Assembly: GCA_951813535.1 (NCBI GenBank)
Contig: OX638345.1
Coordinates: 3,712,608-3,776,607 of the forward strand
From: an uncultured Dehalococcoidia bacterium
GTDB taxonomy: Bacteria; Chloroflexota; Dehalococcoidia; Lucifugimonadales; UBA3495
Direction: 5' to 3'
DNA length: 64,000 bases
Part shown: one piece after another, positions 41,557 to 57,518 of the stretch
Layout of the letters: every line of letters begins with the position of its first letter
Numbering within the stretch: position 1 is the first letter of the stretch
Notes under the pieces: model-generated
Told to the model about the DNA's origin: nothing
The model's database searches: none
What the model saw: the letters and a program-made list of their open reading frames with translations, nothing else
Program-made: the position numbers and the translations under genes

Positions 41557-42663
41557 ATGACTACGCAGCAGCCCATTCGCATCGGACTGATCGGCGCCAA
41601 CATTCACCAGGGCTGGTCGCCGCGCGCGCACCTCCCGGCGTTGGCGGCACACCCTGATTTCGATCTGGCCGCCGTATGTACCACCCGGCAGGAGTCGGCC
41701 GACGAGGCCAAAGCGGCGTTCAACGCGGGAAGCGCGTGGGACGACTACAATCGCATGCTGGCCGACGCCGACATCGAGGCCGCCACCATCTCCCTGCGGG
41801 TGCCGAGCCACTACGAGCCGACCACCGCCGCGCTGCGGGCCGGGAAGCACACCTTCACCGAGTGGCCCCTGGGGCGCACCACTGCCGAGGCCATCGAGAT
41901 GGCTGACCTGGCTCGCGAGCGGGGGGTCAAGACGGCGGTGGGACTGCAGGCTCGAGCCAACCCCGCCATTGCGCACCTGAAAAATCTGGTGGCCGACGGC
42001 TACGTGGGGCGTGTCATGACCTGCCACGTGCGGCTGATGCGCGAGGGCGTGCTTTCGCGGGATTCCGGCCGCACCTGGCAGCGGGACAACGAACTCGGCG
42101 CGCACACCCTGACCATCGCGTGCGGGCACACCATCGACGCGCTTTGCAGCGTCGTCGGCGAGTTCGGCGACGTGGCCACCGTGGTCAGCACCCAGGCCGC
42201 CACCTGGCACGAGTCTGACACGGGGCAGGACCTCGAGGTGACGTCGCCGGACAACATCCTGGTGAGCGGCAACCTGCAGAGCGGTGGTGTGGCGTCGGTG
42301 CAGATCGGCAGCACGCCGTGGGCCGGCAGCGGCTACCGCATGGAGATTTACGGCGAGGAGGGCACGCTGGTGGCCGTCTCCGTGGACTCACCGCAGATGC
42401 AGCAGGTGAGCATCCGCGGCGCGCGCGGCGGCAGCAACGAGCTGCAAGACCTGACGCCGGCCGAGGAACTGCACCTGGCTCCCGAGATTCCGGGCAGCAC
42501 GGCATACAACGTGGGCCAGTTGTACAGCCTGTTCGCCGCGTCGATCCGGGGCACGGCCAACGGGGACACGTTGCCCGACTTCGACCACGCCGTCGGTTTG
42601 CACAAGTTCATCGACGCCATCCGCCAGTCCAGCGACGAAGGGCGGAGAGTTGATTTGGGGTAA
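41557..42663 (+). CDS. Gfo/Idh/MocA family oxidoreductase
   Basis: The 368 aa protein has the NAD(P)-binding N-terminal Rossmann domain (IRIGLIGANIHQGWSPRAHLPAL, residues 6-28) and the segment GKHTFTEWPLGRTTAEAIEMADLA near residue 104, where the usual EKP motif reads TEWPLG. The Pro-Leu-Gly replacement marks the yeast Gal80-like subset; the catalytic Lys of the EKP motif is absent, so activity may differ from classic dehydrogenases. The substrate-binding C-terminal domain follows. Function is otherwise unknown. Confidence 0.88.
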   Translation: MTTQQPIRIGLIGANIHQGWSPRAHLPALAAHPDFDLAAVCTTRQESADEAKAAFNAGSAWDDYNRMLADADIEAATISLRVPSHYEPTTAALRAGKHTFTEWPLGRTTAEAIEMADLARERGVKTAVGLQARANPAIAHLKNLVADGYVGRVMTCHVRLMREGVLSRDSGRTWQRDNELGAHTLTIACGHTIDALCSVVGEFGDVATVVSTQAATWHESDTGQDLEVTSPDNILVSGNLQSGGVASVQIGSTPWAGSGYRMEIYGEEGTLVAVSVDSPQMQQVSIRGARGGSNELQDLTPAEELHLAPEIPGSTAYNVGQLYSLFAASIRGTANGDTLPDFDHAVGLHKFIDAIRQSSDEGRRVDLG

Positions 42664-42715
42664 AATAACCCAACCAAATATACGCTTGAATGCATTGGGA
42701 CGAGGCCGGGCAACG

Positions 42716-43303
42716 TTGACCACATCGACTGAAACATACAGCGGGATGCGTATGACGTCCGAGGAGTTCCGCAGCCTGCCTGAAGCTGGCCCACGCTGCG
42801 AATTGCTCGAGGGGGTGTTGTACGTAATGCCGGAGCCTGCGCTCGACCATCAGTTCCTGGTGCAGATCCTGTGGAAATTCCTGTTTGACCAGTTGACGGC
42901 GGCTGGCCTGGCGCACACGTACATACCGGTGAACCTGGTTGTGTCGGGAGAAAACTACTTGTCCCCCGACATTATTGTCATCCGGGCCGACCGAGCCGAA
43001 ATGCTTGGTGAAGTATGGGTGAACGGCGCTCCTGACATCGTCGTGGAGGTACTGTCAACTGACCGTGACCGCGATCTCGTGGAGAAACGCGCGTTGTACC
43101 AGCAGGCTGGCGTTCCTGAGTACTGGATCCTGGACGGCGACGCGAACACACTGACGGTCCTGGAGTTGGGCGACGACGGCTCGTATCAGGAGCGTGCCGT
43201 CCTCACCGCCGCGGACACGCTGACCACTTCGCTATTCCCGGAGTTCAGCCTGCCCCTGGCGCAGGTCTTCACCCATCCCGCGCGGATACGTTCCCAGGAC
43301 TAA
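42716..43303 (+). CDS. Uma2 family endonuclease-like protein, copy 1
   Basis: Uma2 (DUF820) proteins have a PD-(D/E)XK nuclease fold of unclear role. The 195 aa copy shows MTSEEFRSLPEAGPRCELLEGVLYVMP, LSPDIIVIRADR with Asp of the PD motif, APDIVVEVLSTDRDRDLVEKRALYQQAGVPEYWILD with the EVxS...K motif. The TTG start at 42716 is chosen because the N-terminus aligns with copy 2 (MTTSTETYSGMRM against MTTTPDIRAGARM); ATG 42746 is the alternative. It starts 52 bp after the oxidoreductase and is followed by a paralog. Confidence 0.85.
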   Translation: MTTSTETYSGMRMTSEEFRSLPEAGPRCELLEGVLYVMPEPALDHQFLVQILWKFLFDQLTAAGLAHTYIPVNLVVSGENYLSPDIIVIRADRAEMLGEVWVNGAPDIVVEVLSTDRDRDLVEKRALYQQAGVPEYWILDGDANTLTVLELGDDGSYQERAVLTAADTLTTSLFPEFSLPLAQVFTHPARIRSQD

Positions 43304-43329: not shown

Positions 43330-43920
43330 ATGACGACCACACCTGACATCAGGGCGGGCGCCCGCATGAATCTGGCGGAGTTTCTGGACTTGCCCGTACA
43401 GGAGACACGCTGCGAGCTCATCGACGGGGTTGTGTATATGGCCGCTTTCCCGATCCCGGACCACCAATTCCTGGCTATGGTTTTGAGCACGCAATTGGCC
43501 CTGCAAATCATGGAAACCGGGCTCGGCATCGTGTACCAGGTGGCCGGCGTCGTCGTATCGGACAGCAGCGCTTTGGGGCCGGATATAGTGGTCGTGCGGT
43601 CGGAGCGCGTCGGTATCATCGGCCCAACCGTGATTGACGGCGGCCCGCCGGACATCGTGGTGGAAGTGTTGTCGTCCAACCGCCACACGGACCTGGTACG
43701 AAAGCGCCAGCTGTACGCCGCTGCCGGTGTTCCTGAGTACTGGATCCTGGACGGCGACGCCAACACGCTCACTGCCCTGGAGTTGGGCGAGGATGGCGCC
43801 TACCGGGAGCGCGCAGCCTTGACATCCGCCCACACCCTGACCACGCCGCTCTTCCCGGAGTTCAGCCTGCCCCTGGCGCAGGTGTTCGACCATCCCGCGC
43901 GGATCCAACGGCAGGAATAG
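43330..43920 (+). CDS. Uma2 family endonuclease-like protein, copy 2
   Basis: This 196 aa paralog of the preceding gene keeps the PD-(D/E)XK residues (LGPDIVVVRSER; PDIVVEVLSSNRHTDLVRKRQLY). Its C-terminal half is nearly identical to copy 1: GVPEYWILDGDANTLT and LFPEFSLPLAQVF occur in both, and nucleotide identity is high there, while the N-terminal 100 residues diverge. This suggests gene conversion or selection on the C-terminus. Role unknown. A hairpin terminator lies 26 bp downstream. Confidence 0.85.
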   Translation: MTTTPDIRAGARMNLAEFLDLPVQETRCELIDGVVYMAAFPIPDHQFLAMVLSTQLALQIMETGLGIVYQVAGVVVSDSSALGPDIVVVRSERVGIIGPTVIDGGPPDIVVEVLSSNRHTDLVRKRQLYAAAGVPEYWILDGDANTLTALELGEDGAYRERAALTSAHTLTTPLFPEFSLPLAQVFDHPARIQRQE

Positions 43921-45314: not shown

Positions 45315-45746
45315 TTAGCAGGCGGTGGGGGAGGGGGCAAGGTTGGGCATCTCCCTGAGCAACCGCTCCGCAAGCGTCGTCAGTTCTTTGGTTTCACATT
45401 CCCAGACCGTGATTACACTCCAGCCGAGTTCGCGCAGTCGGGCGTACTGCCGCTGGTCGCGATTGACATTCTCGTTGAACTTGTCCTGCCAGAAGGCTAG
45501 GTTGCTCTTGGGCGTATAAGCGAACCGGCAACCGGAGTGGCGATGCCAGTAGCAGCCATGCACCAGCACGACAGCGCGCCGGCCCGGCAGGACGATGTCG
45601 GGGCGGCCTGGCAAGTCTTTTCGGTGCAGGCGGAATCGGTAGCCCATCCTGTGCAGCAGAGAGCGTACCAGTCGCTCCGGCTTGGTATTCCCGCTTCGGA
45701 TGCGGGACATATTCCAGCTGCGATGTTCAGGCGTTATGCGGTCCAT
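45315..45746 (-). CDS. vsr: Vsr-like DNA mismatch endonuclease
   Basis: Vsr nicks DNA 5' of T:G mismatches formed by deamination of 5-methylcytosine. The 143 aa protein has TPEHRSWNMSRIRSGNTKPE, GRPDIVLPGRRAVVLVHGCYWHRHSGC and WSVITVWECE. Asp50 and His63 match the catalytic Asp51 and His64 of the E. coli enzyme, and Trp67 the stacking Trp68. It lies at the end of a five-gene operon and overlaps the dcm stop by 20 nt. In such operons it may act as the repair or restriction nuclease for the cytosine methyltransferase; which one is not settled by sequence. Confidence 0.93.
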   Translation of the reverse strand: MDRITPEHRSWNMSRIRSGNTKPERLVRSLLHRMGYRFRLHRKDLPGRPDIVLPGRRAVVLVHGCYWHRHSGCRFAYTPKSNLAFWQDKFNENVNRDQRQYARLRELGWSVITVWECETKELTTLAERLLREMPNLAPSPTAC

Positions 45747-47307
45747 TTGTTGGTACTCGGTTTCTTTCTAGCAGACCCGCGACCAGTTCAGCAATCTGGT
45801 ACGACAACAACGGTGGCACCGCGTTACCTACCTGGCCGTATTGGTCGGTCCGACTGCCCTCAAAGAAATAGTTGTCGGGGAAAGTTTGCAGTCGGGCCGC
45901 TTCCCTGACGGTGAGGCTGCGGCATTGTGATGCGTCGTAGTGGATGTAATAGTGCCCATCCTTACGGATGTGACTAACCACCGTTCGGGATGGGGCATCC
46001 TTTGGCACTACGCTGAACCTGTCAGCAAAGTTGCTGTTGTTCAAGGCGCTTTCTGTACTGCGGTGGTTTGGGCGCAATCCCGGTGGGAAATCGCTGATAC
46101 GGAACGGCCGGTCGAGACCGCTGACGTAACAAGCGGCGTAGATATACCGCCACAAGTCATCCGCTCGGTGCGTCCTGGCTTGGTGGTTCAGGGTTCCTGG
46201 TAAGCGCTCGTCCTCAAACCAATCCCGTCTATACTCACAGGTTGATGTGCTATTCAAAAAGCGCAGGTCGCCGCGATCACATTGAGGGACCTCAATCTTG
46301 GAAAGAGCAGCATCTATCCGGCCTCGGACCGATTCATCGATGTCGAACCACCAACGTTGCTCCACGATGTCGTTAACCGACTGAACCCAGCAAACTGGGT
46401 CGTCCTGACTGGACAATCCGCTTCTTACGGAGGGCACGCCATCCAAGACATTTTTAGCACCAACCTTCTCCGATAATGCCGTCAGCGTCTCAGGCTTGGC
46501 GAGTACATCATCGCGCACGCCAAGTATTACTACGCGGTGGCGCGCTTGGGGTATGCCATAATTCTCCGACTTGACTACGAAATCTGAAGGAGTTGGCAAA
46601 CCATCCAATCGAGAGGGTTTTGCAGACACCGGATAGAGTTTATATCCGTAGTGGCGCGGAACTGAAATTCCATCAAGTGCAAGTGCACGCACTGGGGCAG
46701 CCAAATCGGCATACATCCGGTCAAAAATCGATTGATCTTTGCGGGATGCGCTCAGCAGGCCCCGCACGTTTTCCATCACAAACGCAGCGGGCCAATGTGT
46801 AGCAATAATCCTGATGTATTCACTATAAAGCTCAAACCGAACATCGGTGTCCGGGTTGTAATCGTCCACTGGCCTGTTGCTATTCCTGGCCCGCCCGATG
46901 GTCGAATACGCTTGACAGGGTGGCCCGCCAATCAACACCCAATCGTCGGCGTTCGCCGTTGCCTGTCTGATCGCTCTGTTAAGACGGCCATCGTATGCCT
47001 GATCACTGCCCAACTCCACCTGTAGGCAGCGACGTTCTGCCTCCTTGGCTTCCTCGGGATGCCGGTGAAACAGTTCATACCGGTCTATCTGCCCGCTGAC
47101 GTATTCGTAGTAACCGTTGGGCACGCGCGCACCCCTGAACTGATGGTAGAAAGCCCGCAGCTGGAGCGTGCGGATCGGGACAGCGTCCTTTTCGATAGAC
47201 AAGCGAACATCGAACGGGTACTCCCCACCTCGTTCGAGAGCGTTGAAACCCTCCCCGAGGCCGCCGCAACCCGCAAAAACATCGACGACCGGAATGATGT
47301 TGCTCAT
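45727..47307 (-). CDS. dcm: DNA (cytosine-5-)-methyltransferase
   Basis: The 526 aa C5-cytosine methyltransferase carries motif I DVFAGCGGLGEGF (residues 9-21), motif IV GGPPCQAYSTIGRAR with catalytic Cys131, motif VI VMENVRGLL (178-186), and the late motifs SRTVV and RLQTFPDNYFF with QVGNAVPPLL (motif X). The Tyr in CQAYS replaces the usual Phe/Phe-like residue (PCQ-x-x-S). Between motifs VIII and IX lies a target-recognition region of about 150 aa, so recognition sequence is unknown. Its start overlaps the upstream gene by 4 nt (ATGA), and vsr overlaps its end. Confidence 0.93.
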   Translation of the reverse strand: MSNIIPVVDVFAGCGGLGEGFNALERGGEYPFDVRLSIEKDAVPIRTLQLRAFYHQFRGARVPNGYYEYVSGQIDRYELFHRHPEEAKEAERRCLQVELGSDQAYDGRLNRAIRQATANADDWVLIGGPPCQAYSTIGRARNSNRPVDDYNPDTDVRFELYSEYIRIIATHWPAAFVMENVRGLLSASRKDQSIFDRMYADLAAPVRALALDGISVPRHYGYKLYPVSAKPSRLDGLPTPSDFVVKSENYGIPQARHRVVILGVRDDVLAKPETLTALSEKVGAKNVLDGVPSVRSGLSSQDDPVCWVQSVNDIVEQRWWFDIDESVRGRIDAALSKIEVPQCDRGDLRFLNSTSTCEYRRDWFEDERLPGTLNHQARTHRADDLWRYIYAACYVSGLDRPFRISDFPPGLRPNHRSTESALNNSNFADRFSVVPKDAPSRTVVSHIRKDGHYYIHYDASQCRSLTVREAARLQTFPDNYFFEGSRTDQYGQVGNAVPPLLSYQIAELVAGLLERNRVPTNGPHNA

Positions 47308-48002
47308 GATTTGAAGCGATCGAACTCTGCTGGAAGCAACTCTAAAAGTTTGTCCGCAGTCATATTAGGGCTAGAAAGGTCCCAAGTCAGGTCAAGTTGC
47401 CCCACCACAACACCGAACCGTCCTGGTCCGCCCGGTCCCTGGGTTCCAGAACCCGGTTTAGGATGATCGCCCTGGCCGATGTAGAGTCGCGTTGCGACCT
47501 GCATGGCTGCATTGCTAGTGACCACATGTTGGCGGGAAGCCAGTTGCTCAACGAGGTCGCCGGGCCGATGCAGCGGGGTGGCCAACACGGCCATCGCTCG
47601 CCGGGGGTTATCTCGGTGCGCCCGGTAAATTTGGTAAGGGCCACGCAAAAGATGGCGATAGTAGTCTAGGTAGCCTTCCGTCGGTACCCACCGATTTTGA
47701 GCTTTGTGCGGAGATCCACTGGGACAGAGCAGGGGAAAATAATATGCTGACAGCCACGCCCAGATACCACGGTCAGCGTCCAATCCCACAAGACCTGCAC
47801 CATCGAGGAGATTATACATATACTCGCTGGCGGCAAACCTCGTGGCGAACTGATGAAACTCCACATGTAGAGTTGCCGAGACATCGTCCGTAAAGTTGGG
47901 ATCGTCCAGTATAGCGAGCAACTCTTTTGTATCCGATGTGTATGATGCCCGAAACTCGTCAAAACGGTTGATCCCGCTCGCGTTAAACCGGCGCAGTTTC
48001 AC
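47304..48002 (-). CDS. Defence-operon protein of unknown function (DUF6339-like, 232 aa)
   Basis: The protein starts at GTG 48002, which overlaps the TGA of the upstream gene by GTGA; the alternative ATG 48023 would add 7 residues. It begins KLRRFNASGINRFDEF, with FATRFAASEYMYNLL and DRGIWAWLSAYYFPLLCP in the first half, YYRHLLRGPYQIYRAHRDNPRRAMAVL in the middle, HRPGDLVEQLASRQHVVTSNAA and LLELLPAEFDRF at the end. From memory this resembles a conserved family (DUF6339) associated with restriction-modification loci. No nuclease or ATPase motif is visible. It is tightly coupled to dcm (4 nt overlap). Confidence 0.72.
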   Translation of the reverse strand: MKLRRFNASGINRFDEFRASYTSDTKELLAILDDPNFTDDVSATLHVEFHQFATRFAASEYMYNLLDGAGLVGLDADRGIWAWLSAYYFPLLCPSGSPHKAQNRWVPTEGYLDYYRHLLRGPYQIYRAHRDNPRRAMAVLATPLHRPGDLVEQLASRQHVVTSNAAMQVATRLYIGQGDHPKPGSGTQGPGGPGRFGVVVGQLDLTWDLSSPNMTADKLLELLPAEFDRFKS

Positions 48003-48778
48003 GTGTGGTTCCCCCTTGTCCATTCGTTTTGGAAACGAGTGTAGGATTGGTTCTGCTTAGCGAAATTTGCTGTAGCCCCTTCAATCCAATCGATAATGGC
48101 TTCCGCATTGTTATCATCGTCAAAATCAGGGTGGTTGCCTGCTTTCAAGTGGCGCTCCGCGAACCCGACCCATTGGCTCGACCAGTGGTCTTGGCTTTCC
48201 AAGTCACGTACATCTTTGTCCTGAAAAATCTGGTTTAGCACCGTGCGCACTGCTGTAGGGTAGACCAAAGATAAGAAGTATGGGTGGTCGCGCGTCATTT
48301 CCACCCATTCTTCGATACGATTGTTGACCAACAGGACAGGACCGTCTTCCTCAAAAGTGAGGTGGTACACCTCTTGATCAAGGTCCGAGACCCGGCGGAC
48401 TGGAAGGAGCGACTCTGTGTTTCCGCTTTTCCAATCGGCTTGGAAGCCGCTGCCCTCAGCCAAGATTTGACCTTGTGTCTGTTGATCGACAGAAGTTACT
48501 TTCACCCTGAACCGTATGCGGTCTGGATTGATGAATTCGGGCAGAGCAGTCGGTCCCAGAAGTTCACAATTGCTTACATTGCCCAAGTCAAATGGTATGC
48601 GGACAGGCCCGCGATACGCTTCAAGACGCACTAAAGCAGTGGTCGGCAAACTGTAATCCTGTAACGCAAGGCGTAAAACCTCGAAAGATACCGGTGATGC
48701 TTGGTCATCCAGAACGATGCTTATGTCTTTCCCCGCAATTGTCTTGCGACCGGTAAAGTTTATTTGTGCGACTGGCAT
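47999..48778 (-). CDS. Defence-operon protein of unknown function (259 aa)
   Basis: No family is recognised. The N-terminal half looks beta-rich (GRKTIAGKDISIVLDDQ, TTALVRLEAYRGPVRIPFDLG, IRFRVKVTSVDQQTQGQILAEGS), consistent with a beta-sandwich; the C-terminal half is helical with a Trp-rich stretch (DHWSSQWVGFAERHL). It lies 4 bp after the GHKL ATPase gene and overlaps the next gene start (GTGA), so all members are expected to be made together. It may be an adaptor to the ATPase, which is an inference from order. Confidence 0.7.
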   Translation of the reverse strand: MPVAQINFTGRKTIAGKDISIVLDDQASPVSFEVLRLALQDYSLPTTALVRLEAYRGPVRIPFDLGNVSNCELLGPTALPEFINPDRIRFRVKVTSVDQQTQGQILAEGSGFQADWKSGNTESLLPVRRVSDLDQEVYHLTFEEDGPVLLVNNRIEEWVEMTRDHPYFLSLVYPTAVRTVLNQIFQDKDVRDLESQDHWSSQWVGFAERHLKAGNHPDFDDDNNAEAIIDWIEGATANFAKQNQSYTRFQNEWTRGNHT

Positions 48779-48782
48779 TGTT

Positions 48783-50624
48783 CTATCCTTTACGGTCGGC
48801 GTCGACGATAATGTCCCGGTTGTAGTCGAATCCCGTTACCGTCACGTTGAACGTGGGATTCAGGATCCGTATGACCATCTGGTTTTCGGCCAGCTCCACC
48901 ACCTCAGCACCTTCCAATCGATGCTGAATGGGTTTTTGCCCGAATTGGAAGTCGTCTCGAGTGTACCTGCCCAATGCCGAACGGGTACGGCTGTTGTCTG
49001 CGTACGCGACCTGTATTTTCACTTGATCGTCAATCTCAAGGCGTTGCCTTCCCGGGCCCACCGAAAAGCCATGGTCCGCCGCCGTTATCCTCACGTATTG
49101 TTTACGCCTTGCGCCGTTGCCATTTCCACCGATGCCCGGCTTAGGGAACAGGTCAGCCAAAATTTTCTTATCCTCCGTTTCCTCTGCTGACATAGCTAGG
49201 CTGTAAATCTGCCGTACGCTATTCGTGACGAAAGCGATCAACCCAGGGGCATAGACGTAATCCTTTTTGACCCGGTTCGTCTGCCACTGCGTGTGGCTGG
49301 GGTTTTCCGAGAGACGCAAGAAAGCGGCCAAAGGTTCGTGGTCAATGACTACCATTGACAGAAGACCACCTCTTGGTGTTCGGGGACGTACATCGCCAAT
49401 GAGAATGTCCTCCCGAATGAAGGCAGGATCAATTGGTTCGTCGGAATCTGTGAAAGTCACGTAGACGTCAAAATAAGAATCTTCGATGGGACAATTGCGC
49501 TTCCTCACTGACAGCGGCACGCGTATGGCTACCCGTTCGCGGTTCTGAAATTTTCCGCGCAACGTGTCAAGCATCTCAGCTGGAAACGCGCTTTTTTGCC
49601 AAGAGTAAGGTCCCTGGCGCGGATGAGGATTCAGGGTGAACATGTGCTCTAATGCATTGCCAGAGGTGGCCCACTGAGCTAGTCCTATCATTGGCGCGAT
49701 ATTGGATAGTTCCGCGTGCTTTGTGACTTCGGAAAGCAAATCTTTTTTACCCAAGAGCACTTGCTTCTGGGGAGTTTCAATCATGACAGTCAACTTGTCG
49801 TTGAGAATGGTATAAAAATAATTTTCGCAAACAGCTTGGATGATCGCCTCTTCTTTGATTTCTGGATCTGGCCATACGACAATCACGGAAAGCCCACTCT
49901 CATTCTTCCGTTTGAGGCGGAAGACGCTTGAAAATTTTTCGACGATCGTTGTGTCGTCGATTGGCAGAATGAAACTGGGATGATCTTCGAACGGTACTCC
50001 AAAATATCCATCGCCGTGATAGTCAGAATCATCTAGGCGGTGCGACCGCAACACCGACCTGCCCATCAACAGGGGTTTTTGGTCGTTACTGCGTATGGTC
50101 AAACCAAAAATCGTCTTGATCCTACTAGCTTGGAAGAAAGTAGCCTTTCCAACACCCCGGCTGCCACGCTCCCCAGGAGTTTTGTGGGTCAATGCTTCGG
50201 CCCGGAAGAAATTGAAGAAGTCGTTTCGCTGATCTGACGAGGGTGCCCGCCATTCATCCGGGTCTCCTTCCAACCCGGTAGTGTCTAGGTCTTCAAAAAC
50301 CAGCGCCGTGCATTTGTCGTTTGGGCCGGGGATCTCCTCTGGGTAAAGGCCACTACTGTCGGACCTGTAATGAGGCCATACATCAGCAAAGAAGGGGTCC
50401 ACGCTGGCGCGTCCTGGAGCTTGGTCCTCGTTGAGGATTGATATGTACACCATTGCTGGTTTGTCGGCGTAAATCTTGTGGGCATCTAGTGAGTTTTGAA
50501 TCCCTTCACGCACTAATGCTTTCCCGGGATCACTTACGGTTTCACTGTCGAAGAACGCGTCAGCGGTAGAGTTCCGGTATGTGTCCCCCGGTGCATATTT
50601 TTTGAAGAGCCAATTTCCGTTCAT
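48783..50624 (-). CDS. GHKL-type ATPase, first gene of the putative defence operon (613 aa)
   Basis: The N-terminal 170 residues follow the GHKL (gyrase, Hsp90, kinase, MutL) ATP site: the N-box LVREGIQNSLDA (Glu40, Asn44), a diverged G1 box VFEDLDTTGL (109-118), and a G2/lid loop GERGSRGVGKATFF (151-164). The middle is alpha/beta and the C-terminus beta-rich (KIQVAYADNS, VVELAENQMVIRILNP). Relatives of this MORC/MutL-like class occur next to cytosine methyltransferases in modification-linked systems. It is followed at 4 bp by the next gene; GAGG precedes its ATG by about 8 nt. Codon and base composition look more AT-rich than neighbours. Confidence 0.8.
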   Translation of the reverse strand: MNGNWLFKKYAPGDTYRNSTADAFFDSETVSDPGKALVREGIQNSLDAHKIYADKPAMVYISILNEDQAPGRASVDPFFADVWPHYRSDSSGLYPEEIPGPNDKCTALVFEDLDTTGLEGDPDEWRAPSSDQRNDFFNFFRAEALTHKTPGERGSRGVGKATFFQASRIKTIFGLTIRSNDQKPLLMGRSVLRSHRLDDSDYHGDGYFGVPFEDHPSFILPIDDTTIVEKFSSVFRLKRKNESGLSVIVVWPDPEIKEEAIIQAVCENYFYTILNDKLTVMIETPQKQVLLGKKDLLSEVTKHAELSNIAPMIGLAQWATSGNALEHMFTLNPHPRQGPYSWQKSAFPAEMLDTLRGKFQNRERVAIRVPLSVRKRNCPIEDSYFDVYVTFTDSDEPIDPAFIREDILIGDVRPRTPRGGLLSMVVIDHEPLAAFLRLSENPSHTQWQTNRVKKDYVYAPGLIAFVTNSVRQIYSLAMSAEETEDKKILADLFPKPGIGGNGNGARRKQYVRITAADHGFSVGPGRQRLEIDDQVKIQVAYADNSRTRSALGRYTRDDFQFGQKPIQHRLEGAEVVELAENQMVIRILNPTFNVTVTGFDYNRDIIVDADRKG

Positions 50625-50749
50625 AGTGATCCTCGATCGAATTTACATCAAAGAGTGCGGTGCCTTTCAGCCGAATTTGCGTACCCCGAGGATGTTACAA
50701 TCGCTAGAAGTCTGACGCAACCCTGTACCCTTTTTCGAGGTCCAAAACC

Positions 50750-52417: not shown

Positions 52418-52512
52418 GGACGGCGGTACGATGGAAAGCTGGCGGGGACGAGTCGCGAGTGGAAGCTATACCGCAGCACGCACCTCGCCGGCGGACTTTC
52501 GGGAGTTGGAGC

Positions 52513-52767
52513 ATGAAGATCACGCTGGACATCGACGAGGAAACTGTAGCCAGGGTCAGCAAGATTGCCGCCGCTCGGGATCTGACGGTGGAGGCAATGG
52601 TGGAAGAGTACCTGACCGGGATAGCAAACAGCCATGCCGCCTCCCGTATGGAACGCATTACCAAGTTCCGGGACGCGCTGGAACGCACAGAAGACGAGGC
52701 GAGAATCGTGAATTTGAACCGGGATGACTTGTATGAACGGCCCTACCGCTTCTACTACGGGGAATAG
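52513..52767 (+). CDS. Small antitoxin-like protein, VapB-like (84 aa)
   Basis: The sequence MKITLDIDEETVARVSKIAAARDLTVEAMVEEYLTG resembles the ribbon-helix-helix N-terminus of VapB/DUF6364-type antitoxins, and the C-terminal half is charged (RTEDEARIVNLNRDDLYERPYRFYYGE). The ATG at 52513 follows TTGGAG. There is no toxin gene in the usual downstream place; an aspartyl-protease-like gene follows at 120 bp. It is best called an orphan RHH-like regulator or antitoxin. Confidence 0.7.
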   Translation: MKITLDIDEETVARVSKIAAARDLTVEAMVEEYLTGIANSHAASRMERITKFRDALERTEDEARIVNLNRDDLYERPYRFYYGE

Positions 52768-52887
52768 AAATTTCTTCGACAGCAACATCAGACTAGTCCC
52801 GCAACGGCGTCGTTGCGATCAACCCGTTCTGAAATTCGGTGGACGTTCGACCGGCCGGGCGGCGCACTAATGTCACGGAGCCATCAA

Positions 52888-53244
52888 ATGGGCACATTCA
52901 ATCTGACCATCCAGATCGCCAACCTCAACGGTGAGCATTTCGAGGATGTTGAAGTGATGGTGGATACCGGTGCAATTACTACGGTAGTTCCGCGGCATAT
53001 CCTGGAGGGGCTGGGGATTCAGCCCACCAAGCGCGAAACTTTCGAGTACGCCAGCGGGGAACAGGTGCAGTTGGATATCGCCGAGGCGCGTGCCCAGGTG
53101 GACGGGCGCGAAACCATCACTTGGGTCATCTTCGGCGAAGAGGGGGCATCGCCTCTACTGGGAGCCTATACTTTGGAGGGCGTATTCCTCGGTGTGGATC
53201 CCGACAATCAGCGACTGATCCCAGTCACCGGGTCATTGAAGTGA
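52888..53244 (+). CDS. Retropepsin-like aspartic protease domain protein
   Basis: The 118 aa protein has one clan AA aspartyl protease unit: VEVMVDTGAITTVVPRHILEGLGI (about residues 21-44) with the catalytic DTG and the following hydrophobic-hydrophobic-x-x motif, then a flap-like DGRETITWVIFGEEG and the distal LLGAYTLEGVFLGVDP (hydrophobic-hydrophobic-G). Such small proteins probably dimerise to give the two-Asp active site. Role unknown. ATG 52888 (GGAG 7 nt upstream) is chosen over upstream ATG codons. Confidence 0.8.
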   Translation: MGTFNLTIQIANLNGEHFEDVEVMVDTGAITTVVPRHILEGLGIQPTKRETFEYASGEQVQLDIAEARAQVDGRETITWVIFGEEGASPLLGAYTLEGVFLGVDPDNQRLIPVTGSLK

Positions 53245-55479: not shown

Positions 55480-55568
55480 TTTCGTATCCGCACGTTTGCT
55501 TGCTTGGTCGTCAGGATCCAACTGTTTGCCCCTCCGGATTGCTAGCGCGCTTTGAGCAACGCGGGGAG

Positions 55569-55934
55569 TCAGGTTACCGATGGTTCCGTCGCCTCATTCC
55601 AGCCGGGAATGTACCGCTCGACGATTTCAGCATCCGTCGGGAAAGTCAGCCAATTCGAGCTCGGTTGAACCAGACAGTCGAATTCCGCCGCTGCCGGGTG
55701 GCCGCTGATTGCGCCTTCCGCGACGGGGATGTTCAGCCGGACCGGTTCGCGAGTCAGAATACGGGACGAGTAGAACAGTATCATTACGCTTTCCACTTCG
55801 TCTGTGTCAGGATGGCGCCGGGCGATTACACCATCCTCAATATCGTCCTCATCTTGCCCCGGATAAGGCCGGCATTTCTCAATGTACATGATGTTGCCGG
55901 CCACGTCGTGCTCGAATCTCAACGTCGTTGCCAT
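55569..55934 (-). CDS. Small protein, possible DUF2283-like antitoxin partner (121 aa)
   Basis: The N-terminus ATTLRFEHDVAGNIMYIEKCRPYPGQ recalls the DUF2283 pattern, in which a short protein begins with a beta strand containing D-x-x-G/N-x-x-Y. The C-terminal half is unique. The start overlaps the upstream gene by 16 nt, with GGAG 8 nt before the ATG. DUF2283 proteins commonly follow RNase-like toxin genes, which agrees with the neighbour, so an antitoxin role is inferred. Confidence 0.6.
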   Translation of the reverse strand: MATTLRFEHDVAGNIMYIEKCRPYPGQDEDDIEDGVIARRHPDTDEVESVMILFYSSRILTREPVRLNIPVAEGAISGHPAAAEFDCLVQPSSNWLTFPTDAEIVERYIPGWNEATEPSVT

Positions 55935-56230
55935 ATGGTTTCTCCTCTCTGCAACCTCCGGGTAACGAACGCGGTGATTATCCAGTCGCGGGCCGGATGG
56001 TTAACCACCGCTACCATCGCGTACTTGTCCAGATCGTAGAACCAGCGGTAGAACAGGATAGTGTCATCATCGGCCGCTTTGCGCAAGATCAGGTCCGGGT
56101 TTGCCAGCGTAGTAGCGATGTAGTCAGGTCGGTTCGGAAGCAGTTGGGGGTGCTTTTCTGCAATGTGCCGCCCCCGTTCATTGTTGAGTTCCACCGGGCC
56201 ACCCAAGTAAGTGCAATGAAACGTTTCCAC
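55919..56230 (-). CDS. Small toxin-like protein with HIxxKHPxL motif (103 aa)
   Basis: The protein reads METFHCTYLGGPVELNNERGRHIAEKHPQLL, then YIATTLANPDLIL, then FYRWFYDLDKYAMVAVVN and WIITAFVTRRLQRGETIWQRR. The H-I-x-x-K-H-P-x-L helix, the PDLI loop and the terminal strands resemble phage-barnase/EndoU-type (PBECR-like) small RNases, in which the His residues act in catalysis. It overlaps the next gene by 16 nt, as in toxin-antitoxin pairs. Assignment is by pattern only. Confidence 0.6.
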   Translation of the reverse strand: METFHCTYLGGPVELNNERGRHIAEKHPQLLPNRPDYIATTLANPDLILRKAADDDTILFYRWFYDLDKYAMVAVVNHPARDWIITAFVTRRLQRGETIWQRR

Positions 56231-56305
56231 CGGTCACTCCGGCAGTTTCACCATCCTAACGTCGATAATGACGGCGTAGATGAAACTCTGCCGAAAGCGT
56301 TAACG

Positions 56306-57140
56306 TCATGGACGCCACCTCTGGAAACAGTCGGGTAGCTTTGCCAACTCCTCCGCCCACGGGACATTGAGCGTATAAACCAGCGACATCATTCTATCGT
56401 CAAGTACTACCTCTACGGGCGGATTGAAATGTGCTCCTACGAGGATCTTGTTGATCGAGGCAACGACGATGGGCTGGGGGTTGCCGTCTAGCGTGCTGTA
56501 CGTAGATATCTGTATGATAATCCCACCCTTCACGTTTGCTAAGGCAGTCAACGTTCGCTCAAGGTCATCCGGATAGAGATCACCTTCTGTCCTGCTCTTC
56601 CCGAGCTTTATGTCATCATATCGTCGATTGCTACTGTACTTATATGGATCGAACGAGACCAAAGTTACGGAACCATCCGGCAGCCCCACGTCAACGGGGC
56701 TCGGCAACCCTCGAGCAAACCTCTTCCGCCAGTCGCCGTAATACACCTTGGCCCTTTGGCAACCAGGCATCTAGCGCGTTGATGGTTTGGCCATTTATTT
56801 CGCACAACGCATAGAGAAGTCTCGTGTCCACACCCGGTTCACGAAGGCCGCACTATTGGGATAGCCTTCGTTGGGGTAGCCTCCTCTATGTTGCCAATCC
56901 AGTTGACGCCAGACCCGCTCATAGACCCGATAGTCCATCGGACAAACCTCGGCGCACGCTCTCGAACGTGGTATCAGGCGATTTGAGACGGTGCCCAGTT
57001 GCCCACGGCGCCATCGCATGAGCATCGATAAAGTTCAATCCTGGAGCATGTTCGTCCGCAATGTTCACTAGTTCGCAGAGCGTCCAGTGCTGCATCAAGT
57101 GTCCGGCGTTGCCAAAATATGTTGTCACACTTCGCTCCAT
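56306..57140 (-). pseudogene. Frameshifted remnant of an unknown protein (about 275 codons)
   Basis: Three reading frames together spell one protein. Frame 1, from ATG 57140: ERSVTTYFGNAGHLMQHWTL, then LNFIDAHAMAPWA, ending at a stop near 56921. Frame 2 continues from about 56941: DYRVYERVWRQLDWQHRGG, YPNSAAFVNRVW. Frame 3 passes through NALDAWLPKG near 56780, and a fourth join gives CQRAKVYYGDWRKRFARGL, VSFDPYKYSSN and MSLVYTLNVPWAEELAKLP to 56306. At least three indels separate these. The intact family is unnamed to me; the VSFDPYKY motif and LNxIDAHA hint at a TcmP-like shape, which is speculative. Confidence 0.72.
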
Positions 57141-57180
57141 TTTTGAGCAACGCGCCGTCAATCGTCGGTGCAAGTCCCAG

Positions 57181-57495
57181 CTACGCCACCAACTCGCTGA
57201 TGAGGAATTTGGGGCTGATGTCGGTGAAGTTCGGCACGTCCCCGACCAGCTCACGACCATGGGTCTTGAAACCCTCGTGTACGCCGTCAACATCGTTGAA
57301 GAAGAGGTACCCTACGGCGGTGTACAAGGGAGGCGCATTGGGATCGGTGTCGGAAATGCCCTTTTCCACGTTGTAGTAGCGCATCCCGAAGGTGGTCAGG
57401 CGCTCCTGCACCAGGGGCATGTGCGTATTGCAGTAATAGTCGAAATCGAAGGACTTGCCCTCTTCGTTCTCGTAGAAAACGGTTACCTTGATCAT
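57181..57495 (-). CDS. EthD family dimeric ferredoxin-like barrel protein
   Basis: EthD-type proteins are small dimeric alpha+beta barrels, of which some accompany cytochrome P450 or dehydrogenases, and a few act as hydratases or isomerases. The 104 aa protein starts MIKVTVFYENEEGKSFDFDYYCNTHMPLVQERL, with the family motif YxxTHMPLV (residues about 21-29), and has YYNVEKGISDTDPNAPPLYTAVGYLFF. ATG 57495 has AGGAG 8 nt upstream. The gene is 23 bp from the SDR upstream, and the pair is probably co-expressed. Confidence 0.85.
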   Translation of the reverse strand: MIKVTVFYENEEGKSFDFDYYCNTHMPLVQERLTTFGMRYYNVEKGISDTDPNAPPLYTAVGYLFFNDVDGVHEGFKTHGRELVGDVPNFTDISPKFLISELVA

Positions 57496-57518
57496 GCCGG
57501 TTTCTCCTGTGGTGTTGC

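Follow-up and report, generated by a model that had tools for sequence, protein, structure and literature searches.

Which gene product, if any, acts on unmethylated DNA in an operon that joins a GHKL ATPase to a cytosine methyltransferase and a Vsr endonuclease, and in which no restriction enzyme can be recognised? The question is raised by five genes at positions 45,315 to 50,624 of a 64,000-nucleotide stretch from an uncultured Dehalococcoidia bacterium (assembly GCA_951813535.1, contig OX638345.1, positions 3,712,608 to 3,776,607), which we call the window and to which coordinates refer unless another locus is named. A preliminary description had taken the five genes as one putative defence system. 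As shown below this holds for a part of them: the conserved core consists of three genes and not of five, namely the ATPase and two small proteins that form a co-diverging unit, and the methyltransferase and Vsr are its frequent, exchangeable partner and not a fixed component. The genes are designated A (GHKL ATPase), B (259-amino-acid protein), C (232/239-amino-acid protein), D (Dcm) and E (Vsr).

48783..50624, minus strand: A, open reading frame (ORF) for a GHKL (paraMORC2-type) ATPase of 613 amino acids (aa) with ExxxH at E440-H444 (weak PADLOC PDC-M33A match, 9e-26; invariant GHKL and ExxxH columns; hhalign 100% against the PDC-M33A-type family)
47999..48778, minus strand: B, 259 aa, predicted Ig/FnIII-like beta sandwich with a helical C-terminal half (no database family; AlphaFold2 model and fold comparison; weak profile link to PDC-M33B-type proteins)
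47304..48023, minus strand: C, 239 aa (232 aa from the GTG at 48002), predicted all-helical, remote DUF6339 relative (AlphaFold2 model without PDB or viral fold match; hhalign 91%, E 1.1e-6 to DUF6339)
45727..47307, minus strand: D, C5-cytosine DNA methyltransferase, 526 aa, nearest to the DISARM DrmMII models (PF00145, 2.4e-38; PADLOC DrmMII, 3.6e-89; Cys131)
45315..45746, minus strand: E, Vsr mismatch endonuclease, 143 aa (TIGR00632, 4.4e-43, above cut-off; E. coli Vsr structure 1cw0, 4.7e-29, active site aligned)
47304..50700, strand not applicable: block in which A-B-C as a whole appears swapped when compared with the orthologous site of L040, a locus of another Dehalococcoidia genome (nucleotide identity 0.45-0.67 inside, 0.79-0.99 on both sides)

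The coordinates and the tight junctions reported before were all verified: a 4-bp gap separates A and B, a GTGA overlap joins B and C if C begins at GTG, C and D share ATGA, and D and E overlap by 20 nt. Since this GTG at 48002 creates the overlap with B and homologues begin with the same motif, it is the most likely start of C as judged from the sequence, giving the 232-aa form.

A three-gene core beside an exchangeable methylase

Genome-wide searches of 400 genomes of the phylum, made with A and with C separately, found A in 11 and C in 10 genomes, and all 10 were among the 11 (hypergeometric p ~4e-19). When 84,980 species genomes were scanned with an alignment of A, so that loci were chosen by A only, 79 loci from about 12 phyla were obtained, one archaeon included. 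Triad loci of cultured relatives are found in Lysobacter (L059), Pseudomonas (L098) and Rhodanobacter (L088). A, B and C follow each other in this order in every complete locus (at least 7 kb on both sides; n = 43) and in 76 of the 76 loci holding all three genes, with median overlaps of 4 bp. The linked, defence-like operon proposed earlier is supported. The protein distances of its members are correlated (A-B 0.72, A-C 0.65, B-C 0.64; shuffled maximum 0.23 or less), and the corresponding values of A, B and C with D are 0.10, -0.05 and 0.04. No triad was present in phage records or viral contigs, and none was found at the DNA level in E. coli genomes. Five triads from Chloroflexota (L100, L107, L110, L114 and L115) have two C genes in tandem, in some cases with a long extension, and Croceibacterium mercuriale (L086, L106) apparently has two complete triads, each beside Dcm, Vsr and EcoRII.

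A Dcm gene lies within 8 kb of the triad in 31 and a Vsr gene in 26 of the 43 complete loci. As PF00145 genes occur phylum-wide at roughly 0.2 per Mb by our estimate, corresponding to well under 1% per comparable stretch, the Dcm count greatly exceeds what chance would give, even within defence islands. Both genes can be placed upstream, downstream, divergent or convergent to the triad (more than 12 arrangements), and at least three types of Dcm take part: one is DrmMII-like and can be aligned in its target-recognition part over about 26 loci, another comes chiefly from Verrucomicrobiota, and there are short types linked to EcoRII. On a quick tree of A, made with a short search and containing some long branches, these states change at least 20 times.

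Beside the block only housekeeping genes were recognised in many loci with D and E, by reading and not by full profile scanning. Among the loci without Dcm that were examined, some adjoin a Type I system (identified by eye), others an N4/N6 methylase, an AspBHI/Mrr-like enzyme or a gene similar to GmrSD; a number of the triads are isolated. Neighbours seen beside the triad or beside the sister triad described below are EcoRII, AlwI, Sau3AI/MutH and other Type II enzymes, Type I and GmrSD systems, AspBHI/Mrr-like enzymes, Z1-DUF4420, AIPR and HEPN genes. Directly upstream of A, a gene for a PIN-domain (VapC-type) toxin was seen in as many as ten loci belonging to several phyla (L044, 8565-8975; L049, L051, L068, L087 and others), and in some of these a MazE-type antitoxin gene also directly precedes A.

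An exchange of the core is suggested at one insertion site, where L040, from a Dehalococcoidia metagenome-assembled genome (MAG), holds the same cassette between the same flanks as the window. Its proteins are 99% (monooxygenase), 93% (thiamine pyrophosphate (TPP) enzyme), 90% (Dcm) and 84% (Vsr) identical to those of the window, and A, B and C reach 44%, 44% and about 54%. Nucleotide identity in 150-bp bins is high in the flanks, D and E and low in A-B-C, with edges at about 47.3 kb (the C/D junction) and about 50.7 kb (the start of A). The simplest reading of this alignment is that A-B-C was exchanged as a unit and the methylase stayed. A class-wide search with the flanking monooxygenase showed no empty insertion site, because its matches outside the window's genome reached only ~71% identity or less.

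Relatives of the triad and of its single proteins

Of the five proteins just two have a Pfam family, D (C5-methylase) and E (Vsr), and NCBIfam agrees with TIGR00675 for D and TIGR00632 for E, both above cut-off. In PADLOC a partial PDC-M33A match was obtained for A (9.4e-26, best stretch residues 31-283) and a strong DrmMII match (PDLC02649) for D. The gene-by-gene searches suggested in the preliminary description thus gave matches for A, D and E and no direct match for B and C. That A is a diverged GHKL/MORC-type ATPase proved correct: its motifs are intact (E40..N44..D47, D112..G117 and G154..K160 in full-length numbering), the residues of the N, G1 and G2 boxes are invariant in alignments of 10 and 74 sequences, and the ExxxH at E440/H444, which by sequence corresponds to the paraMORC2 hallmark, is invariant in 74 of 74 homologues. 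Cys131 of D and Asp50 and His63 of E, named before as intact, were verified by a motif check and by alignment to 1cw0; D has the complete motifs PCQ (with Cys131), ENV and GNAVPP, and E keeps the Cys/His metal ligands. A CCWGG specificity of D was considered and dropped as neither E. coli Dcm nor the EcoRII-linked Dcms could be aligned with its target-recognition part, and we therefore claim no site for it. Neither the five products nor the scanned adjacent genes include a recognisable restriction endonuclease, in agreement with the earlier description, and no nuclease family was found in A, B or C by Pfam, PADLOC or NCBIfam.

The closest relative is PDC-M33, a phage defence candidate of PADLOC consisting of a GHKL ATPase, a B protein and a DUF6339 protein. 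In a further group of loci the layout recurs with a genuine DUF6339 protein at the C position, and the A, B and C proteins of this group match PDC-M33A, B and C at 1e-117, 8e-66 and 3e-41. PDC-M33 and the window triad share gene order, protein sizes and the ExxxH in A, and both often lie beside Dcm and Vsr. They differ in that the PDC-M33A model, although it matches 74 of 74 A homologues, fits best only over the ATPase part, that PDC-M33B does not match B or its 9 homologues, and that neither PDC-M33C matches C in PADLOC nor PF19866 any of 75 C homologues. Profile-profile comparison with hhalign joins the two triads (probabilities: A 100, E 1.6e-42; C 91; B 29, E 6e-4, a weak link; crossed controls 0.1 and 0.3). 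Since these links exist and the PDC-M33B and C models miss the window branch, the window triad is, by its profiles, a sister branch of PDC-M33 and not a member by its models. The DUF6339-like nature assigned to C before accordingly stands as a remote one; direct membership was rejected, the link existing only through profile-profile comparison with crossed controls near zero. The literature search found no paper naming PDC-M33 or DUF6339.

PDC-M33-type sister triads adjoin Dcm/restriction endonuclease systems on plasmids. In L037 (634-6828) the DUF6339 protein of a sister triad is fused to a domain resembling PAPS (3'-phosphoadenosine 5'-phosphosulfate) reductase and is followed by a GmrSD restriction enzyme, which may represent a phosphorothioate-linked variant. 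A small ORF (~76 aa) recurrently precedes A in PDC-M33-type loci (L122, 4013-4246; L123, 3832-4062; L124, 3813-4040); one was scanned and had no PADLOC match.

MORC-like ATPases near cytosine methyltransferases, mentioned in the preliminary description, have been known since 2008. According to Iyer, Abhiman and Aravind (2008, PMC2292703), paraMORC2 proteins carry the ExxxH near the end of the S5 part, belong to families tied to restriction-modification (R-M) operons with Dcm and Vsr, and have a superfamily II helicase as a frequent, not universal, neighbour. A shares the GHKL ATPase, the ExxxH (in the S5 part by sequence) and the Dcm and Vsr neighbours; unlike these operons the present one has neither a superfamily II helicase in it or in adjacent genes nor a recognised endonuclease of the restriction endonuclease fold, and the text consulted does not describe the A-B-C triad. 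A Z1 gene is present at a related locus, L078.

In DISARM self DNA is marked by a DrmMII-type methylase, 5-methylcytosine (5mC) DNA slows the ATPase and the nuclease is dispensable (PMC9142583). Class 2 DISARM resembles the operon in its DrmMII-like methyltransferase and in an ATP-driven complex proposed to act on unmethylated DNA (PMC9142583), but the operon lacks DrmA, DrmB and DrmC, and a GHKL protein takes the place of the superfamily II ATPase; neither the DrmA helicase nor DrmB (DUF1998) had a match among the five proteins or the scanned flanking genes. The GHKL ATPase of Shedu type I-D/paraMORC3 (VcSduA) is, similar to A, proposed to gate an antiviral DNA activity, but VcSduA has a fused DUF4263 nuclease (PMC12137116), for which A gave no Pfam match. 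Type II R-M systems with a V gene (EcoRII-type) also combine Dcm and Vsr, and EcoRII itself occurs in some triad loci; in the window operon the modification methyltransferase is present and a cognate restriction endonuclease is not recognisable.

For the two small proteins AlphaFold2 gave the models that had been called for, and no known nuclease fold was seen in them. B (predicted local distance difference test (pLDDT) 91, predicted template modelling score (pTM) 0.69) is modelled as a nine-stranded sandwich followed by helices, and the sandwich resembles Ig, FnIII and C2 domains at scores usual for any such sandwich. C (pLDDT 95, pTM 0.91) is predicted to be mostly helical; comparison with PDB and viral libraries matched it to nothing, though this is no proof of a new fold. 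A nuclease fold in B or C was also rejected because sequence searches against PDB gave chance-level matches only.

Possible action on DNA without the host mark

GHKL/S5 ATPases such as MutL, gyrase and MORC are ATP-gated dimer clamps. For MORC-1, entrapment and condensation of DNA are described (PMC8277788). We favour, tentatively and with somewhat less than even confidence, a methylation-paired anti-foreign-DNA system that is DISARM-like without being DISARM, because the pattern of an ATPase with two fixed partners, a changing methylase and no recognisable restriction enzyme recalls DISARM and because GHKL clamp action and MORC-1 entrapment suggest a DNA-loading complex. A-B-C would be the effector, with A forming an ATP-gated dimer clamp on DNA and with B, an Ig-like domain followed by helices, and C, a helical relative of DUF6339, serving as its obligate partners for loading or recognition. 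D would methylate the host genome and thereby restrain A-B-C, and E would repair T:G mismatches arising from deamination of the 5-methylcytosines made by D. On DNA without the mark the complex would load and then block or condense the DNA, or recruit a host nuclease. The defence role, the clamp action, the inhibition by methylation and the absence of cleavage are the parts of this scheme that we infer.

Several points weigh against it. In 12 of the 43 complete loci no Dcm is nearby, and several of these have no visible R-M genes, so that restraint by D cannot be universal; likewise, with some triads having no linked methylase, the mark is probably not the sole control. The missing correlation between D and A-B-C would equally be expected if the module were independent and simply located nearby. 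The block exchange was seen in a single pair of genomes, one of them a MAG, and many of the loci come from MAGs. The C-terminal part of A could hide a nuclease, and PDC-M33 itself is a mere candidate defence system. A more specific version, which we regard as doubtful, would make the triad a bacterial counterpart of eukaryotic MORC silencing: A as the clamp, B as an Ig-like adaptor and C as a helical partner of unrecognised fold would entrap and inactivate DNA lacking the host's 5mC without cutting it, A-B-C being exchanged between lineages as the methylase stays.

Alternatively, A-B-C might be an accessory or backup of a neighbouring R-M system (a booster, a sensor of R-M failure or an abortive-infection trigger) and not an effector that uses methylation. 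The many R-M and defence genes adjoining the triad and its sister (EcoRII, AlwI, Type I, GmrSD and others) and the genes for toxins (VapC-type) and antitoxins (MazE-type) that immediately precede the triad in several loci would fit this, but many loci including the window have no recognisable restriction enzyme to assist and some triads are alone, and we consider it unlikely. Rather unlikely is also a new restriction endonuclease complex, Type II-like with an ATP-dependent restriction part, in which a hidden site, most likely in the C-terminal part of A or else composite, cuts DNA not methylated by D. It would explain why many loci keep D next to the triad with no restriction enzyme that can be recognised, and related GHKL proteins do carry nuclease domains (paraMORC3/VcSduA, PMC12137116). 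Against it speak the failure to find a nuclease family or fold described above and the occurrence of the triad with several Dcm types, without any, and exchanged beside the same Dcm, which a site-matched enzyme should not easily tolerate.

A DNA-repair unit without any defence role, with A as a MutL-like matchmaker for Vsr and the set repairing deaminated 5mC derived from D, seems very improbable to us. The combination of a GHKL ATPase with Dcm and Vsr does recall MutL-assisted very short patch repair, a parallel noted by Iyer et al. (PMC2292703), but A-B-C is equally conserved in the 12 loci where Dcm and Vsr are absent, the genome holds its own MutL, and two other Dcm-Vsr pairs of this genome have no GHKL neighbour in the stretch examined.

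Vsr itself follows Dcm. It occurs in 26 of the 31 loci with Dcm and in none of the 12 without (Fisher p 4e-7), and in the genome of the window each of the four Dcm genes is accompanied by a Vsr at most ~1 kb away, whether a GHKL gene is near or not. In two loci Vsr is absent and an HhH-GPD glycosylase gene lies beside or near Dcm (L091, 5541-6179; L117, 5380-6075); the closest match of the L091 glycosylase is 1kea, a structure with the annotation G-T mismatch repair enzyme, and the glycosylase of L117 is about equally near to MutY and 1kea. Because Vsr is never found without Dcm and a G:T-glycosylase-like gene replaces it in these two loci, E probably repairs the T:G mismatches left by deaminated 5mC made via D. 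The earlier suggestion that Vsr could be the restricting nuclease, steered by the ATPase to unmethylated sites, is hardly credible and was rejected as effector model: Vsr is a PD-(D/E)XK nickase with an intact active site in the same operon, but it is missing from 17 of the 43 complete triad loci, tracks Dcm and not the triad, and can be replaced by a repair glycosylase.

Two of the other Dcm-Vsr pairs in this genome lie at L159 (5805-8408) and L160 (6464-9119), one of them preceded by a DUF4928 protein. At L161 (7468-11052; ~4143467-4147051 on C1 of the same genome) the gene of an unrelated second GHKL ATPase (HATPase_c_3, 661 aa) overlaps Vsr and is followed by Dcm, which looks like a classical MORC-Vsr-Dcm operon.

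Surroundings of the operon and its significance

The lower GC content and the metabolic neighbours reported for the block were confirmed: GC is 0.50-0.57 within the five genes and 0.63-0.69 outside, and the block is flanked by the genes of a luciferase-like monooxygenase and a TPP enzyme. Past the monooxygenase gene lies an adjacent pair of Uma2-like proteins, a putative endonuclease family (42650-43303 and 43330-43920), the second of which was covered by the scan. On the other side an ORF resembling a ribbon-helix-helix/DUF6364 antitoxin without an obvious toxin (52459-52767) is followed by a small aspartyl-protease-like protein (52813-53244). Another GC dip (0.54) at 55500-57500 has no clear gene, and the 154-aa ORF inside it (56306-56770) had no Pfam match.

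The association of MORC/paraMORC proteins with Dcm and Vsr is already known (2008, PMC2292703), and the sister triad is listed in PADLOC as PDC-M33; for the complete set we found, as stated before, no published mechanism. What is described here is a compact and widespread three-gene module of about 12 phyla that the tested PADLOC models see only through its ATPase. Profile comparison links the module to the candidate PDC-M33, and an effector core is told apart from a methylase and a repair partner that can be swapped. Should the effector indeed be a GHKL clamp restrained by methylation, the prokaryotic relatives of MORC would gain a testable immune function and a link to the origin of eukaryotic MORC silencing.

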